NCBI GenBank assembly: GCA_039683095.1
Contig: JBDKSB010000001.1
Coordinates: forward strand, 248,001 to 312,000
Direction of reading: 5' to 3'
DNA from: Acidobacteriota bacterium
Lineage (GTDB): Bacteria; Acidobacteriota; Aminicenantia; Aminicenantales; Saccharicenantaceae
DNA: 64,000 bases
Shown here in pieces: positions 43,541 to 50,249 of this stretch. Each line of letters begins with the position of its first letter. Position 1 is the first letter of the stretch. The translations under genes were made by a program, and so were the position numbers. The notes under the pieces are model-generated. The model saw only the letters and a list, made by a program, of their open reading frames with translations, did no database searches and was not told the DNA's origin.

Positions 43541-44485
43541 ATGATCCGAAAGACACCGAGCCCGCTGATCCTGGGCTTTTGCCTGGCCCTGGCGGCCTGC
43601 GGCTCCGGGCCCTCCTCCTCCGGCCCTTCCTCGTCCGCCCGGGACGAGGCCGCGACCCTCGAACGGAGGGTTGAGCACATCGAGGACCTGCTGGCCCGGC
43701 GTCCCTTGGCCGCCCGGGTCTTCGACGATCTCATCTCGGCCCTGCCGGACCGCGTTTGGCTGACGGATGTCGTCTGCGACGCCGGGAAGGTCCGGATCAA
43801 GGGGGCTGCCTGGTCCAACGACCTTCTGGCGGATTACATCTCCCGGCTCGGCGAAAGCCCGTCGCTCGAAAACCTGGCGCTTGGCGCCTCCGTCTTGAAG
43901 ACCGTGAATGGCCGGGAGCGGGCGGAATTCTCCCTGGCCGCCGCCGTCCGGGAGGAACCCCCCGGCGCTCCGGCCCCGGCCGGCGCGCCCCTGACCTCGC
44001 GCCTGGAAGAGCTGGAGAAGGATCTGCCGGCCCGGCAGGACAGTTCAGCCATGCTGCGGGAGATCCAGCTGCTCACCCTGGATTCGGGGCTCCGGATGAC
44101 AAAGTTCGCGCCTGGCGCCGGGGTCCCGGGGGAATTCACGACGGCGCTGCCCGTCGTTATCGACGTCACCGGCAGTCCGAGCGAGCTCAGGCGCTTCCTC
44201 CGCGGTCTGGCCGGGCTTCCCGGCCTTTGGGTCGTTGAGCGCTTTTCGGTCAAGACCGTTTCCCCGGACGACCCGCGCTCACCCGTGCGCGCCTCCGTCT
44301 CGGCGCGCGCCTACGCCAAAAGCCGACCCGGGGCCGCTTCTCTGATCACGATCTCCTCTTCGCTATGGGCCATCTGCGGCCGATCGGCCGCAGAGCCGGG
44401 ACCGTCCTTCGGGCCCGGGCCGCCGCGCCGAAACGACCCGCGCGTGAGAATTTATCCGACGGACAAGCGTCTTTCTCTCACGTAA
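43541..44485 (+). CDS. PilN-PilO-like fusion as a lipoprotein
   Basis: A 314-residue protein. Instead of membrane helices it has a lipobox (Leu-Ala-Ala-Cys-Gly, residue 20). A short coiled coil (about 37-55) leads to a PilN-like ferredoxin fold (about 57-135; ISALPDRVWLTDVVCDAGKV, then SPSLENLALGASVL). A PilO-like half follows (about 150-250; EIQLLTLDSGLRMTKFAPGA, then LPVVIDVTGSPSELRRFLRG). In type IV pilus and type II secretion systems PilN and PilO are separate inner-membrane proteins of the alignment complex. The last 50 residues (Pro/Arg-rich) lie outside the domains. No pilM or pilQ is nearby. The -10-like TAAAAT at 43499-43504 may be its promoter. Confidence 0.68.
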   Translation: MIRKTPSPLILGFCLALAACGSGPSSSGPSSSARDEAATLERRVEHIEDLLARRPLAARVFDDLISALPDRVWLTDVVCDAGKVRIKGAAWSNDLLADYISRLGESPSLENLALGASVLKTVNGRERAEFSLAAAVREEPPGAPAPAGAPLTSRLEELEKDLPARQDSSAMLREIQLLTLDSGLRMTKFAPGAGVPGEFTTALPVVIDVTGSPSELRRFLRGLAGLPGLWVVERFSVKTVSPDDPRSPVRASVSARAYAKSRPGAASLITISSSLWAICGRSAAEPGPSFGPGPPRRNDPRVRIYPTDKRLSLT

Positions 44486-44523
44486 GGGCCATGATCTCGT
44501 TTTTTCGCATCGGGCCTTCTCAG

Positions 44524-44552
44524 TTGATTCGCCATGGCCTGGTTCGTATAAT
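44524..44552 (+). promoter_or_regulatory. Near-consensus promoter of the TPR-CHAT gene
   Basis: TTGATT (44524-44529) and a perfect TATAAT (44547-44552) at 17 bp. The leader is about 38 nt to the ATG at 44597. This is a housekeeping-type promoter. Confidence 0.75.
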
Positions 44553-44596
44553 GATCGCGAGATTTGTTGGCTTATAAGGGGCAGGAGGGCTCCAGG

Positions 44597-47566
44597 ATGC
44601 GCCTGGCGGTCTTCGTTTCCTTAGGCCTCCTGTTTTTTACAGGCAGCCTCCCGATACCTCCGGCAGAGCCGGAAAAGCCGTCATTCGAAAGATCGCTTGC
44701 CCATGCAGGGGAATTGCGTTCTCAAGGCGATTTCGTCCGGTCTTTCAAGGCCATGCAACAGGCGCTTTCCATCGCCTTGCGGGACCGGAAGCCCTCCCAG
44801 CAAGGCAAGTGCCTGATACGGATGGGCCTCCTCAAGTGGGACCTTGGCGAGATGGCCGAATCCGCCTCCAGTTTTAGCGACGCAAGGGCGGCCTTCAAGG
44901 CGGCCGGAGATCTGAGGGCCCAGGAATTCTGCGCCACTTGTCTCGAGGTGATCCGTCTCTACAAACAGGGCAAGGAAGACCGCAAGGCCGGACTATTATA
45001 TCGTTCAGTCGCCCGATTCGAAGAGGCGTTCTCCCGTGGCCGTGAGACCGGCATGCCGGATTTCGAGCTTAAGTGCCTGCGCCAGCAATCCCTGGCATAT
45101 CTGGACCTGCGCCAGTTCGACCTTTTCTTGAAGAACAACAAGAAAGGGTTGGAGATCGCGACGTACATCTCCCATTCTGCCGAACAAGGCCGCTGCCTGA
45201 ACAACATCGGGGTCTATCATCAATGGCATAATGATTATTCGCGGGCCGTTTCGCATTTCGAAAAGGCCCTGGCCGTATCGAACGCGGCCGAGGATCCGGC
45301 AACGGAAGCCGAGTGCCTGAACAACCTCGGACTCATCTATCGGGAACTCGACAACTTCGAGCGGGCTCAATTCTATCTCGAGCGCGCGCTGGCGCGGGAT
45401 CGGTCAGGAGGGGACCCGAACGCCGTCGTTATGGATCTCGTCAATATCGGAGCGGTGCTCTTGAGTCGAGGGATCGAGGAGCACACGAAGGACGACCTGC
45501 TCAAGGCGCTCGAAATTTTCAGGGACTGCCTGCGACTTCAGGATCTGAAGACGGCGGATCGCCTCGTCATCTTTGTGATCCTCAATAATATGGGTATCAT
45601 CCGTAACGAACTTGGCGATCCCGAAGGGGCCCGACGCCACTTCGAACGGGCGGCGGAGATCCTCGACCCCGCCAAGGATATCCTGGAACGGTGCCAGGCG
45701 CAGATCAACATTGCGGCCTCCTATCTGCGCGAGCAAAACGTCGAACAAGCGTTGTTCCATTTCCGGAGCGCGTTCGACATCGGCGCCAAAGGATCATCTG
45801 AAAACGTCCTGATCGAAGCGTCCGTCGGGCTCGGTCAATGCTACGAGAGGATGCACGACGGCCTGTCGGCCCTCTCGTTCTATCGGCGGGCCATCGAGAC
45901 CATCGAGACGATGAGGGGCCGGATCTTGAGCGAAAGCGCGTCGATCGGCTTCGCTCGGAACAAGCTCGAACCCTATGAAAGGTCGATCCATATTCTAGCC
46001 GACCGTTACGTCGCGCGGCCTTCTCTGGGAGGACTCGACGAGATCTTCAGCGTTATCGAAAGAGCCCGAGCCCGAGCCTTCCTGGAAAGCGTCAACCAGG
46101 CCCGTTTCGATCTCCCGTCGTCCGGTTCCCCGACATTGGCCGAGCGACAACGGGCCATCTCCGGGAATATTGCCAGATTAAGGACGGCGGCAGCCGATCC
46201 TTCGAACGCCCCGGAACTGCGGCAGGCCATGAAGCAGGAACTCGAACTGGAGGAAGAGAAGTACGTCCGCTTGATCCAGGAAGCGAAGGCTGCCGGACGA
46301 CCCCGGGACCTTCGATGGCAGACCCCCCTTGACCGGATCGACGTTGTGCAGGGATTGCTTGCGAGCAGAGAAGCCCTGGTTCTGGAATATTTCCTGGGCG
46401 AGGAGCGCTCCTATCTGATCTCGATCTCTCAAACGACGGCGGCCCTTCATCTTCTCCCGGGGCGGCGGATGATCGAAGGATCGTTGAGAGCCTATCTGAA
46501 ATCGATCGCTGACCGTTCGTTGGATCCGGAGACCGGATCCAACGCCGCCGAGAGGATCGGGAGCGATCTTATCCCGGTCGAACAGGAGATCCGATCGGTC
46601 CGGACCGTAATTGTGATCCCCGACGGCATCCTCCACTATCTCCCTTTTGAGACCCTCAAGATACGGGACGGTAACGGCTCGAGATACCTCGTCGAGGAGA
46701 CCTCCGTCGCCTATTGTCCGTCGTCCTCGGCGCTTGTCGCTCTCGCGGGATCGGGCTTGCCGCTGCGGCCGAGATGGAAAAAGGAGCTTCTGGCCGTCGG
46801 GGGGGTGACCTATCAGGCCGGCGACAGGCATGATCGCCGGGCTTCAATAACCAGCCGTCTTTCCGACGAACCGATCGATTTCGAGGAGGGGATTGAATAC
46901 CCCTCGCTTCCGTTCAGCCGGAAGGAGATCCTGGATATCTCACGGGTTTTCCCGGCGGATACGGTAGACGTATTGACTGGTGACGCCGCGACCGAAGCGA
47001 ACGTCAAAATATGGCCCTTGACGGAATACCGGATCATCCATTTCGCCTGCCATGGATTCCTCAACGAGCGCTATCCCTTCAGGTCGGCCCTGGCCCTCTC
47101 TCCCGGAGGTAGCCCGGAAGAGGACGGGTTTCTTCAGATGCGGGAGATCTACGGGCTGGACGTAAACGCCGATCTCGTCGTTTTGTCAGCTTGCCAGACA
47201 GGGCAAGGCCTGATGGAGAGATCAGAGGGCCCCATGGGCCTATCTCGCCCGTTCTTTTTCGCCGGCGCCCGCTCGGTCCTCGCTTCCCTTTGGCCGACCG
47301 ACGACGCGGCCAGCCGGGCCTTCATGTCCGATCTCTATCGGGCGATCGCCGACGGCTCGTCCGCGTCTGAGGCTCTCAGCCGCACGAAAAGAAAGATGCT
47401 GAGGAGCTCTCAATGGGCTCATCCTTTCTATTGGGCTGCCTTCATGTTGCAGGGAGATCCTTCGACCGCGGCGTCGGCGACCCGGCATCCCCTTGATCCT
47501 ACCGGTGGACGACGAAACGGAGCAGCCCGGATTCCGCGCACTTGGAACCACGGAGATAAGACGTAA
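44597..47566 (+). CDS. Exported TPR-CHAT caspase-like protease
   Basis: A 989-residue protein. The N-terminus reads MRLAVFVSLGLLFFTGSLPI and looks like a signal peptide or anchor, placing the protein outside the cytoplasm. Residues about 30-430 are TPR repeats. A helical linker follows, then the CHAT domain (about 640-985). The catalytic dyad is visible: His819 in HFACHG and Cys866 in LSACQTG, with the downstream FFFAGARSVLASLWPTDD signature. CHAT proteases are caspase relatives that cut after recognition by the attached TPRs. The ATG at 44597 has GGAGG; a TTG at 44564 lacks a ribosome site. It converges with a sigma/anti-sigma operon and overlaps the anti-sigma end by 68 nt. Confidence 0.92.
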   Translation: MRLAVFVSLGLLFFTGSLPIPPAEPEKPSFERSLAHAGELRSQGDFVRSFKAMQQALSIALRDRKPSQQGKCLIRMGLLKWDLGEMAESASSFSDARAAFKAAGDLRAQEFCATCLEVIRLYKQGKEDRKAGLLYRSVARFEEAFSRGRETGMPDFELKCLRQQSLAYLDLRQFDLFLKNNKKGLEIATYISHSAEQGRCLNNIGVYHQWHNDYSRAVSHFEKALAVSNAAEDPATEAECLNNLGLIYRELDNFERAQFYLERALARDRSGGDPNAVVMDLVNIGAVLLSRGIEEHTKDDLLKALEIFRDCLRLQDLKTADRLVIFVILNNMGIIRNELGDPEGARRHFERAAEILDPAKDILERCQAQINIAASYLREQNVEQALFHFRSAFDIGAKGSSENVLIEASVGLGQCYERMHDGLSALSFYRRAIETIETMRGRILSESASIGFARNKLEPYERSIHILADRYVARPSLGGLDEIFSVIERARARAFLESVNQARFDLPSSGSPTLAERQRAISGNIARLRTAAADPSNAPELRQAMKQELELEEEKYVRLIQEAKAAGRPRDLRWQTPLDRIDVVQGLLASREALVLEYFLGEERSYLISISQTTAALHLLPGRRMIEGSLRAYLKSIADRSLDPETGSNAAERIGSDLIPVEQEIRSVRTVIVIPDGILHYLPFETLKIRDGNGSRYLVEETSVAYCPSSSALVALAGSGLPLRPRWKKELLAVGGVTYQAGDRHDRRASITSRLSDEPIDFEEGIEYPSLPFSRKEILDISRVFPADTVDVLTGDAATEANVKIWPLTEYRIIHFACHGFLNERYPFRSALALSPGGSPEEDGFLQMREIYGLDVNADLVVLSACQTGQGLMERSEGPMGLSRPFFFAGARSVLASLWPTDDAASRAFMSDLYRAIADGSSASEALSRTKRKMLRSSQWAHPFYWAAFMLQGDPSTAASATRHPLDPTGGRRNGAARIPRTWNHGDKT

Positions 47567-48179
47567 CCATCCAAAAATAAGCCTGCCCGGGGCGCAGCCT
47601 TAAAGCGATCTCGGACGGGAGTCGCGCCTGAAGATCCTGGATCTTATCGCTGGTCCAAACCGGCAGCAGGTTTTCGTCGAAAAGCTCGACAACGTAATAT
47701 TCTGAACCTGGCTTGGCCTGCCAACGAAATATCGCCGGGGACGAAAGTGCGAGTCCTTGTTTGGGTGAGAGGAGGGAGATCTCCGCGGAGGCCAGTTGGC
47801 GCGTCCCGGAAACCTCCGCCTGATGCCCGATAACGAGGAATGAATAGACGATAAGGCTCAGGCCGAGCAGGGCCAGGGCCCCCTGCCAGAGAGCGGGATA
47901 TCCCAGCTCCTTCCCGATGTCCTCCGGCTGCGATGCGGAGTCGGCTGTCGGGTCCGAGGAGGTCGTTCTCTGGTGCTCGAAGAACATCATGAATTCCTCG
48001 CGGCACATCTGACATGCGGAGATGTGATCGACGATCCTCTTCTTCTTGCGGACGGAAGCCGTAGGCTCGAAGGACCTGGCGATTTCCCGGGGGGACGGAC
48101 ACTTCTTGCGTCCTGAAGGCCTGCGGGAAGATGCGTAGGCCTTATAGGTTTCCCGGAGATCAGGATGATCGGTCTTCAT
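47499..48179 (-). CDS. Zinc-finger transmembrane anti-sigma factor
   Basis: A 226-residue protein. The N-terminal cytoplasmic part holds a ZAS-type zinc finger: Cys27, then His52-x3-Cys56-x2-Cys59 (HISACQMC). A single membrane helix lies at about 96-118. The extracytoplasmic part (about 135-226) is a small beta domain (SSPAIFRWQAKPGSEYYVVE, then RPGQAYFWMVTSYL), like FN3-type sensor domains. It should hold the neighbouring sigma factor inactive until released. The start overlaps the sigma gene by 20 nt, giving tight coupling. The 3' end overlaps the convergent CHAT gene by 68 nt. Confidence 0.85.
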   Translation of the reverse strand: MKTDHPDLRETYKAYASSRRPSGRKKCPSPREIARSFEPTASVRKKKRIVDHISACQMCREEFMMFFEHQRTTSSDPTADSASQPEDIGKELGYPALWQGALALLGLSLIVYSFLVIGHQAEVSGTRQLASAEISLLSPKQGLALSSPAIFRWQAKPGSEYYVVELFDENLLPVWTSDKIQDLQARLPSEIALRLRPGQAYFWMVTSYLRGSKCAESGLLRFVVHR

Positions 48180-48708
48180 TGCGCGTTTCCAGATCTTTAA
48201 GGGATTTCCGTATGTCGGCGAATCCTCTGTAGAGGAGGTTCCGGGTCTTGTCCAGGCTCCAGTTCATGTAGGAGGCGATCTCCTGAATGTTCAGATTGAG
48301 GAGGTAGAGCTTAACGACCTGCCGCCGAGAATCCATGAGCTGTTCGACGGCCCTTCCGACCGTCTCTTCAAAAGCCCTCTTTTGGATGCCTTCGCCGTTA
48401 TAGGGGATGCTCCGCTCTGAAATGTGCTTCTGCCTTTCGTGGAGATAGAGCGAATCGTCCCTGCGCCGTTTCCTAAGTTGGTCGATGACCGCCGAACTGA
48501 TTATCCTCCTGATATAGGACGCAGGGCTGAGAATCGCCCTTTCACTGCAGATGAGCTTCCAGATCCTGATCTTGACCTCCTGCAGGATGTCTTCCGGGTC
48601 AAGACCGTACTTCAGAAGGTTAAATCGTTGGACCTGGAAGTTCATATAGGGAGCATAGGCATCGAGGATCTTTTTGAATTTCTCTTCCCTTTGACGAGAA
48701 AGATCCAT
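48160..48708 (-). CDS. ECF-like RNA polymerase sigma-70 factor
   Basis: A 182-residue sigma factor. Region 2 (about 20-90) has DPEDILQEVKIRIWKLICSE and SPASYIRRIISSAVIDQLRK. Region 4 (about 120-175) has DSRRQVVKLYLLNLNIQEIA and WSLDKTRNLLYRGFADIRKS, with the recognition helix. The ATG at 48708 is chosen because the promoter at 48745-48773 makes an RNA starting near 48738; longer frames run through the promoter. It is the first gene of a two-gene operon with its anti-sigma partner. No obvious autoregulated ECF-type promoter was seen. Confidence 0.88.
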   Translation of the reverse strand: MDLSRQREEKFKKILDAYAPYMNFQVQRFNLLKYGLDPEDILQEVKIRIWKLICSERAILSPASYIRRIISSAVIDQLRKRRRDDSLYLHERQKHISERSIPYNGEGIQKRAFEETVGRAVEQLMDSRRQVVKLYLLNLNIQEIASYMNWSLDKTRNLLYRGFADIRKSLKDLETRNEDRSS

Positions 48709-48744
48709 CCGAGCGTCCCGCCTGTCGCTGGTTCTTTTAGATAT

Positions 48745-48773
48745 TCTATAAATAAAGAGCGAAAATGATACAA
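48745..48773 (-). promoter_or_regulatory. Promoter of the sigma/anti-sigma operon
   Basis: TTGTAT (48768-48773, minus strand) and TATAGA (48745-48750) at 17 bp; TAGAAT shifted by two bases is an equal alternative. The surrounding 60 bp are markedly AT-rich. Confidence 0.6.
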
Positions 48774-48867
48774 GAAAATTCTCACGGACGGAAAAAAGAC
48801 TCTCGATTCTTGAAAATACCCATATCCCGGGTTGCTTCAAACGGGACCGCGCCGGATCCGGCCCGCC

Positions 48868-48895
48868 TTGACTCCCCCGGCCGGATGGATAAAAT
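48868..48895 (+). promoter_or_regulatory. Promoter of the propeller regulator gene
   Basis: TTGACT (48868-48873) and TAAAAT (48890-48895) at 16 bp. The RNA start near 48902 excludes the in-frame ATG at 48885. Confidence 0.55.
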
Positions 48896-48935
48896 AGCAT
48901 TTTACCAAGGACTTAGGCATCCTGGGGGCCGCGGC

Positions 48936-50249
48936 GTGAACGAGTTCTCCAAGGAGAATCTTCTGCGCTCCTGGAAGGAGATAGCCGCCTACCTGGGCTG
49001 TGACGTCCGGACCTGCCACCGCTGGGAGGTCCAGAGGGGCATGCCCGTCCATAGGGCGGAGGGCTCAGAGACCAAGTCCCCCGTTTTTGCCTACAGGGAC
49101 GAGCTCGACCGCTGGTTCCAGGAAACCTTCACGGCTTCGAACAACCGCAAAGAGAAGGCGCGCGGGCTCCCCGCCTGGGCCAAGTGGGCGGCGGGGGCCG
49201 TCCTGATCCTGGGCCTGGCCGGGGGATCTTGGCTCCTGCTGGGGCGGCGGACCAGGCGGCAGCCGGCAGACTTCTCCATCGAGGGCTCGGTCTTCATCGC
49301 CCTGGACAAGCAGAAGCGCGAGCTTTGGCGCCAGGACCTCAAGGTGCCGGACCTCCAGAGCGAGGACTATTACCGGCAGAACTTCCAGACCGTCCACAAG
49401 GACGGCAATATCCTGCCCGTCCTCTGCATCGGGGACATCGACAAGGACGGCGACAGCGAAGTCCTTTTCGCCCTGCGGAGGAAGAGGGACCAGACGGGGG
49501 AGGGAATCCTGTACTGCTGGGACCGCCGGGGCCGGGAGCTTTGGAAGTTCGCCGCCGGCAGCGAGCTCAAGTGCGGCCCGACGGTCTTTTCCCCGGACTA
49601 CCGCATCGTCGGCATCTTCCCCCACGACGTCGACGGCGACGGCAGGCTGGAGATCGCCGTCGAATCGTTCCAGGCTCCCGAATGGCCGTGCCAGCTGGCC
49701 CTGCTCGACTCGTCGGGCCGGAAGACGGGCGAGTTCTGGAATGCCGGCTATCTCCGGGAGGTGGCGTTCAAGGACATCGACGGCGACGGCCGCGAGGAGC
49801 TGATCGTCGTCGGGGTCAACAACGAATTCCAGGGCGGCTGCTTGATCGTCTTCGACACGCGGCGCATCGGCGGCGGCTCCCCGCAGACCGGCAGGTTCGC
49901 GTGCGACGGTGTCAGCCCGGGCACGATGCTCTACTACGTGACCACGCCCTATCCCGACGTCGCGAAGGTTCTCAACTTCCGGGTCGAGGGGTTCGGGCTG
50001 GTCGAGATCACCAACAACAATTGGATCAGGGCCTCGACCGCCAGCGGCCTGATTTGGGAGTTTGACTTCGACCTCCGGTGCGTCCAGGTCACCTGGGGGC
50101 ACACCTTCGAGATCCATCACGACGAGGGCGTCAAGGCGGGGACCCTCACGAGCGTCCTCGGCGACGGCTACGCCCGGATGCTCCGCGAGGGCGTCCGCTG
50201 GTGGAACGGCGCGGAGTGGACGGCCGAGCCGTCCATGGTCCGGCGCTGA
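48936..50249 (+). CDS. Transmembrane winged-HTH regulator with FG-GAP/VCBS propeller sensor
   Basis: A 437-residue protein. Residues about 8-62 form the excisionase/MerR-like winged HTH (RSWKEIAAYLGCDVRTCHRW, PVFAYRDELDRWFQE). One membrane helix lies at about 82-102. The outer part (about 115-437) carries FG-GAP-like calcium loops (DIDKDGDSEVLFAL, DVDGDGRLEIAVES, DIDGDGREELIVVG), so it is a likely beta-propeller sensor. The DNA-binding head matches the TPR regulator at 37144. The GTG at 48936 is the first plausible start after the promoter; its ribosome site is poor. It is divergent from the sigma/anti-sigma operon. Confidence 0.84.
   Translation: MNEFSKENLLRSWKEIAAYLGCDVRTCHRWEVQRGMPVHRAEGSETKSPVFAYRDELDRWFQETFTASNNRKEKARGLPAWAKWAAGAVLILGLAGGSWLLLGRRTRRQPADFSIEGSVFIALDKQKRELWRQDLKVPDLQSEDYYRQNFQTVHKDGNILPVLCIGDIDKDGDSEVLFALRRKRDQTGEGILYCWDRRGRELWKFAAGSELKCGPTVFSPDYRIVGIFPHDVDGDGRLEIAVESFQAPEWPCQLALLDSSGRKTGEFWNAGYLREVAFKDIDGDGREELIVVGVNNEFQGGCLIVFDTRRIGGGSPQTGRFACDGVSPGTMLYYVTTPYPDVAKVLNFRVEGFGLVEITNNNWIRASTASGLIWEFDFDLRCVQVTWGHTFEIHHDEGVKAGTLTSVLGDGYARMLREGVRWWNGAEWTAEPSMVRR

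Follow-up and report, generated by a model that had tools for sequence, protein, structure and literature searches.

A gene for an apparently exported caspase-like protease of the TPR-CHAT type lies tail to tail with the gene of a membrane anti-sigma factor in a 64,000-nt stretch of the Acidobacteriota contig JBDKSB010000001.1 (positions 248,001 to 312,000; hereafter the window). This arrangement suggests that the enzyme throws a transcriptional switch by cutting the anti-sigma factor. Together with the gene of an extracytoplasmic function (ECF) sigma factor, the two genes very probably form one functional module, as judged from sequence and its conservation. The locus is real and conserved; we read it as a two-protein, split relative of DdvA, the transmembrane anti-sigma factor of Myxococcus, and the module is not descended from type III-E CRISPR. 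We know of no substrate for most bacterial CHAT (caspase-like) proteases. Here, a candidate emerges from the neighbourhood, the compartment, and a solved relative alike, namely the outer part of the adjacent anti-sigma factor. The family is found across Acidobacteriota and perhaps beyond, and a simple cleavage test is now possible. If the reading is correct, the proteases that make the first cut in envelope signalling gain a caspase-fold member, and sigma release by Craspase and DdvA would represent a recurrent use of CHAT proteases rather than a CRISPR oddity.

Architecture of the locus

The source genome belongs to Candidatus Aminicenantes (Acidobacteriota)—little-studied bacteria of soil and sediment—and comprises 3.29 Mb on 13 contigs at 95% completeness. 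Three genes make up the module:

44597..47566, + strand: TPR-CHAT caspase-like protease gene, 989 aa, the convergent partner ("CHAT_B" type); from the open reading frame (ORF), Pfam, alignment, and linkage
48160..48708, - strand: ECF sigma factor gene, 182 aa; from the ORF, Pfam, a family model, and the family alignment
47499..48179, - strand: membrane zinc-finger anti-sigma factor gene, 226 aa; from the family alignment and a structure model

The CHAT frame runs on the + strand from an ATG at 44597 to a stop at 47566 and encodes 989 aa. On the opposite strand, the 3' end of the sigma gene and the start of the anti-sigma gene (ATG 48179) overlap by 20 nt; hence, translation of the two is likely coupled. 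The CHAT and anti-sigma frames share 68 nt at their 3' ends. In the fullest layout among the fetched loci, a CHAT_A gene, the sigma gene, and the anti-sigma gene follow each other on one strand and converge with CHAT_B (CHAT_A > sigma > anti-sigma > < CHAT_B). The window carries the convergent CHAT_B only, without CHAT_A.

The original prediction, made from the sequence alone, described a 989-residue TPR-CHAT protein with His819 and Cys866, its convergence with a coupled ECF-like sigma factor, and a transmembrane zinc-finger anti-sigma factor. All three parts are borne out: the protease by its frame, the Pfam CHAT match (1.3e-66), and an invariant dyad; the convergence by the opposite strand, the 20-nt overlap, and the Sigma70_r2 and Sigma70_r4_2 regions; and the anti-sigma factor by C27/H52/C56/C59 and one membrane helix in the model.

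The CHAT protease

46550..47458, + strand: CHAT domain, residues 652-954; Pfam CHAT (PF12770) E=1.3e-66 and predicted fold
47051..47053, + strand: catalytic His819 codon; H in 54/54 homologues
47192..47194, + strand: catalytic Cys866 codon; C in 54/54 homologues
44597..44665, + strand: signal-like hydrophobic N terminus, residues 1-23; such a stretch opens nearly every complete homologue

Several TPR families of Pfam are matched in addition to the CHAT domain, and both the predicted fold and the His-Cys dyad place the protein in the CHAT protease class (PF12770). The structure predicted for the CHAT region (pTM 0.82) matches the TPR-CHAT protein of Craspase (Z 28.9), separase (Z 26), DdvA (Z 22.7), and gingipain R (Z 19), and the His and Cys positions align. 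DdvA shows the highest identity among the leading fold-match rows, with 24% over 282 residues. It is also the closest solved relative of the CHAT domain by sequence, at E=3e-4 (PDB 8rot/8rw5, titled "CHAT domain-containing protein").

Conservation of the dyad bears on an alternative in which the CHAT protein acts without cutting: it would bind the outer fibronectin type III (FnIII)-like domain of the anti-sigma factor as a co-sensor or shield, and signal binding would change the state of the anti-sigma factor. TPR superhelices and FnIII domains typically serve as binding modules, and DdvA reportedly has an incomplete active site, yet is an anti-sigma factor. A pure binding role would not, however, require His819 and Cys866 to be invariant in all 54 homologues, and this alternative is considered improbable.

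The N terminus of the protease in the window, MRLAVFVSLGLLFFTG, is hydrophobic, as it is in nearly every complete homologue. Hence, the most likely place for the protease and the FnIII-like domain to meet is outside the inner membrane, as far as N termini and the anti-sigma model can tell. Export had been proposed in the original prediction, for which a cytoplasmic CHAT protein would have been fatal; the enzyme instead looks exported to the side on which the outer domain of the anti-sigma factor lies.

The sigma and anti-sigma factors

48003..48101, - strand: zinc-finger anti-sigma (ZAS) region C27...H52xxxC56xxC59; C 36/36, H 35/36, C 36/36, and C 36/36 in the family alignment
47811..47891, - strand: single membrane helix of the anti-sigma factor, residues 97-123; model helix and hydrophobic sequence
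47502..47774, - strand: FnIII-like outer domain of the anti-sigma factor, residues 136-226; structure model, fold and profile matches

The sigma factor, with its best start at ATG 48708, matches Sigma70_r2 (4e-8) and Sigma70_r4_2 (3e-6) and scores 46.1 bits against TIGR02937 (cut-off 42.9). Its small size (182 aa), with regions sigma2 and sigma4 and no sigma3, is that of an ECF sigma factor. The anti-sigma factor of the window has no match in Pfam, zf-HC2 included. Its C-H-C-C site, its one membrane helix, and the coupling of its gene to the sigma gene are those of a membrane anti-sigma factor of the ZAS kind, with zinc and sigma binding predicted from sequence and model. The outer domain is modelled with block pLDDT values mostly >90; its fold matches are mainly FnIII modules, and a profile match to an FnIII structure is found at E=0.014.

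Many genomes of the order also carry, flanked by uvrA-holB-PSP1 on one side and ftsK on the other, a sibling sigma/anti-sigma pair that shares the FnIII-like outer domain and has no CHAT gene beside it (L103-L121, e.g. L103:8821-10065). This sibling anti-sigma gene is likewise convergent with the adjoining operon. In genome G119, an anti-sigma factor of the uvrA-locus kind occurs with a convergent CHAT gene (L235).

Conservation of the module within the order

The linkage count covers 61 genomes of the order (the source genome and relatives) with 94 scored CHAT genes; convergent partners are defined by an anti-sigma homologue within 1.5 kb. An anti-sigma gene adjoins 78 of the 94 CHAT genes, of which 50 are convergent with it (0.06 expected by chance) and 28 are located upstream of it on the same strand. 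By genome, both CHAT and anti-sigma genes are present in 42, neither in 14, CHAT only in 3, and the anti-sigma gene only in 1, where the contig ends (Fisher 5.5e-10, uncorrected for kinship). The source genome itself holds a second copy of the module in identical layout.

In most genomes the module lies beside NDK, a context that is syntenic across the order. Conserved gene order by itself, with no functional tie, might thus keep the neighbourhood together, an explanation that we regard as extremely improbable: the module persists in about eight further contexts whose flanking genes differ, occurs in the second copy, and recurs in other classes with a different orientation. The original prediction had made its case depend on a conserved neighbourhood of the three genes, and such a neighbourhood is what these counts, contexts, and classes reveal. 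Two close relatives (G004 and G012) have NDK without the module in the stretch covered, where contig ends and short stretches limit a reading as loss of the whole module.

Two CHAT genes flank one sigma/anti-sigma pair in L067, L092, L093, L096, L099, and L100. A glycosyltransferase-like gene of opposite orientation is frequent between CHAT_A and the sigma gene, and an AAA regulator-like gene is present in L091/L100.

Occurrence beyond the order

Across 297 genomes of the phylum, a profile search identifies relatives of the anti-sigma factor in other classes. Of 12 anti-sigma loci outside the order that were examined further, four are convergent with a CHAT gene (L232, L233, L234, and L235; three of them from one genome), and three are sigma–anti-sigma–CHAT operons on one strand (L238, L239, and L242). 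Since linkage is found in convergent as well as operon arrangements, it does not depend on one gene order. Genome G119, which belongs to the class of the source genome, carries no fewer than three distinct loci with convergent CHAT and anti-sigma genes (L232, L234, and L235), with divergent anti-sigma factors.

Most of 80 named CHAT loci from many phyla lack such a neighbour. Among them, L169, L176, and L196 encode a zinc-finger membrane protein convergent with CHAT; in L169 and L176, a sigma-like gene stands behind it. A candidate lies just upstream of CHAT in L160, L163, L226, and L228, with a clear zinc-finger and membrane layout in L163 and L228.

Comparison with DdvA and other known systems

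In the DdvA-DdvS system of Myxococcus xanthus (Bernal-Bernal et al. 2024, Sci Adv 10:eadp1053, as cited in PMC12288465), as here, an ECF sigma factor is held by a transmembrane anti-sigma factor, and DdvA bears a CHAT domain itself. The CHAT domain of the window is related to that of DdvA in both sequence and fold. DdvA reportedly has a C-H-C-C zinc anti-sigma domain and a periplasmic TPR-CHAT part, and self-cleavage in trans by the incomplete CHAT site, before RseP, is reported to have been proposed for it. DdvA combines both parts in one protein, whereas here a small anti-sigma factor with an FnIII-like outer domain is separate from an exported protease with both catalytic residues, and the two genes are separate in every locus. 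No fused anti-sigma–CHAT protein occurs in the fetched loci, and no HxxxCxxC zinc motif is found at the N terminus of 101 CHAT ORFs. Because DdvA joins anti-sigma factor and CHAT in one chain, it is a pointer to cooperation of the two separate proteins here.

Craspase of type III-E CRISPR (Csx29-Csx30-CASP-sigma; PMC10028731) likewise combines a TPR-CHAT protease, a sigma inhibitor, and a sigma factor, and its CHAT fold is matched at Z up to 28.9. However, Csx29 is bound to Cas7-11, whereas the CHAT protein here is apparently exported, and the anti-sigma factor, being a zinc-finger, membrane, and FnIII protein, is unlike Csx30 as known. Against the Csx29 family model, the CHAT protein of the window reaches 26 bits, with a cut-off of 300. 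The comparison with type III-E CRISPR drawn in the original prediction thus holds for logic and fold and fails for kinship. DdvA, which that prediction did not name, is the nearer precedent than Csx29/Csx30. Direct descent from either Csx29 or DdvA was rejected: the Csx29 cut-off is missed, and DdvA is a distant relative only.

The expectation that CRISPR plays no part has stood up as well, with no CRISPR-like repeats in the window and no Cas1 in the 95% complete genome; Cas7-11 itself was not searched. These negatives bear on a further alternative, a sigma-controlled conflict or suicide system of caspase-like type that would resemble CRISPR or a defence island. CHAT proteases are indeed part of Craspase and of PADLOC defence models, with weak matches to BovA (3e-6) seen here, and DdvA-DdvS controls an island of cyclic oligonucleotide-based antiphage signalling (CBASS) and type III-B CRISPR, i.e. 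a defence island (PMC12288465). Besides the missing Cas1 and repeats, the locus shows no recognisable defence genes, being surrounded by NDK, PilN/PilO, and penicillin amidase, and it stays beside NDK across the order. A conflict system is therefore very unlikely.

ECF54 sigma factors of Actinobacteria also have CHAT-domain genes in their neighbourhood (PMC8999054). They lack an anti-sigma factor, and proteolysis of the sigma factor itself was proposed (PMC8999054); in contrast, the sigma gene here is coupled to that of an anti-sigma factor. Full-text literature searches on CHAT and anti-sigma factors, with most subscription papers outside their coverage, revealed no description of the split form; relevant are the Craspase papers and the ECF54 remark.

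Membrane anti-sigma factors of the RseA-DegS-RseP and RsiW type are freed by a periplasmic first cut, followed by an intramembrane cut. The first-cut enzyme there is a serine or other protease, in contrast to the caspase-fold CHAT cysteine protease here. Two-step regulated proteolysis of the RseA/RsiW type is also discussed in PMC10028731.

Promoters and regulation

44444..44471, + strand: ECF-type promoter-like motif GTGAGAA-N17-CGTC upstream of CHAT; motif search and relatives
44524..44552, + strand: sigma70-like promoter TTGATT-N17-TATAAT upstream of CHAT; sequence
48752..48785, - strand: ECF-type promoter of the sigma/anti-sigma operon, GTGAGAATTT...CGCTCTTTAT; motif shared across sigma upstream regions

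The sigma-gene motif, GTGAGAA-N17-C(A/G/T)TCTAT, lies ~60-90 nt before the start. Among sigma upstream regions, 22 of 31 carry it at p<=0.05 relative to random stretches of their own locus, a figure that is not independent since the motif was derived from the same sequences. The motif upstream of the sigma operon resembles the situation in the DdvS system, where the promoter of the sigma gene depends on the sigma factor itself (PMC4374960).

The copy upstream of CHAT is the sole match to TGAGAA-N14..19-CGTC in the window, with 0.8 expected by chance. At p<=0.05 the motif is found in 11 of 20 CHAT_B and 1 of 8 CHAT_A upstream regions, the loci being related and not independent. In another genus, g4, GTGAGAA-N16-CGTC is kept in all 14 scorable CHAT_B upstream regions of unrelated contexts and is followed by a sigma70-like box. 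An origin of the CHAT-upstream motif as an accident of a divergent signal-peptide gene was dropped, as the motif is kept across unrelated upstream sequences. Position 44524, at which the region of the original prediction begins, is the first base of the sigma70-like promoter upstream of CHAT, and relatives show a similar TTGACTT...TATTATTAA box at the equivalent site. Given the shared ECF motif and the sigma70-like box, CHAT_B is probably both basally expressed and part of the sigma regulon.

Membership in the regulon is also what would be expected if CHAT were one of the pathway's outputs: a different site-1 protease, DegS-like or otherwise, would free the sigma factor, the sigma factor would switch on CHAT, and CHAT would cleave other envelope proteins. 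The presence of GTGAGAA-N16/17-CGTC upstream of CHAT as of sigma fits this alternative. However, the adjacent gene pair is kept across classes in both orientations, and the DdvA chain, which joins anti-sigma factor and CHAT, points to a direct link. Moreover, the co-directional upstream CHAT genes are mostly without the motif (1/8), as expected for a constitutive sensor, and CHAT also has a sigma70-like promoter. We consider a role as mere output fairly unlikely.

A wider regulon is not apparent in the source genome: GTGAGAA-N15..18-CGTC has 7 matches (6 with spacer 17), compared with ~5 expected from base composition (an estimate) and 0 for a reversed-pattern control. The genes downstream of the genome-wide matches (gyrB, an AbrB-like gene, and non-coding repeats) form no pattern and no credible regulon. 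Two non-coding matches, L247 and L251 (G000:C1:138921 and G000:C12:306079), share a ~100-bp repeat with the end GGCGCCTC.

Proposed mechanism

In the scheme that we favour, the exported CHAT protease cuts the anti-sigma factor and thereby frees the sigma factor, as a split counterpart of DdvA; we give it slightly better than an even chance. Herein, the C-H-C-C zinc finger of the anti-sigma factor would keep the ECF sigma factor captive on the inner side of the membrane, as family knowledge suggests, and its FnIII-like domain would reside in the periplasm. The TPR-CHAT protein, to judge by the N termini, would be exported to this same compartment, where its TPR superhelix may sense a signal or partner. 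CHAT would then cut the outer part of the anti-sigma factor or its membrane-near linker, and a site-2 protease such as RseP would make the second cut, upon which the sigma factor is released. M50 peptidases have three matches in the genome, near-universal enzymes that lend weak support to the site-2 step. The released sigma factor would transcribe the operon that encodes it and, in several genera, CHAT as well, from GTGAGAA-N16/17-C(A/G)TC promoters, creating a positive feedback, as the motif suggests.

Four observations weigh against this scheme. The ECF motif upstream of CHAT would make CHAT a product of the sigma factor and fits the output alternative equally well; 16 of the 94 CHAT genes have no anti-sigma gene nearby (several at contig ends); many genomes hold two CHAT genes per sigma/anti-sigma pair, of which one is superfluous in a simple one-protease model; and an Arg in the membrane-side linker, kept in 32 of 36 linked anti-sigma factors, is also present in the CHAT-less sibling family (Arg 17/17, Arg-Gly 16/17). 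Separase and gingipain R are Arg-specific, hence the initial appeal of this residue. With the same Arg-Gly in the CHAT-less siblings, the linker Arg was rejected as a CHAT-specific cleavage site and provides no evidence that singles out CHAT substrates. It may be structural, or the sibling anti-sigma factor may likewise be a substrate.

More broadly, the split loci may represent a widespread CRISPR-free family, in which a soluble exported TPR-CHAT protein makes the first cut, in trans, in a membrane ECF anti-sigma factor and is itself part of the sigma regulon, giving feedback. The split form and the fused form (DdvA) would then be two states of one old design. This generalisation is offered tentatively, at a little below an even chance.

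Neighbouring genes

The three genes lie in an island of low GC content (0.51-0.60 across 44400-49000 vs 0.67 for the window), despite an old locus that is syntenic with NDK across the order. Directly upstream of CHAT, a single protein fusing PilN and PilO domains is encoded at 43541-44485 on the + strand. Compared with L084/L086, a divergent gene between PilN/PilO and CHAT (44440-44590) has apparently been lost in the window, with its start alone left; L084 retains the gene, with a Tat-like signal, SRRKFF, in the opposite frame. Divergent from the sigma gene, a gene at 48765-50249 on the + strand encodes a helix-turn-helix, a membrane segment, and FG-GAP repeats, roughly at the position that CHAT_A occupies in relatives.

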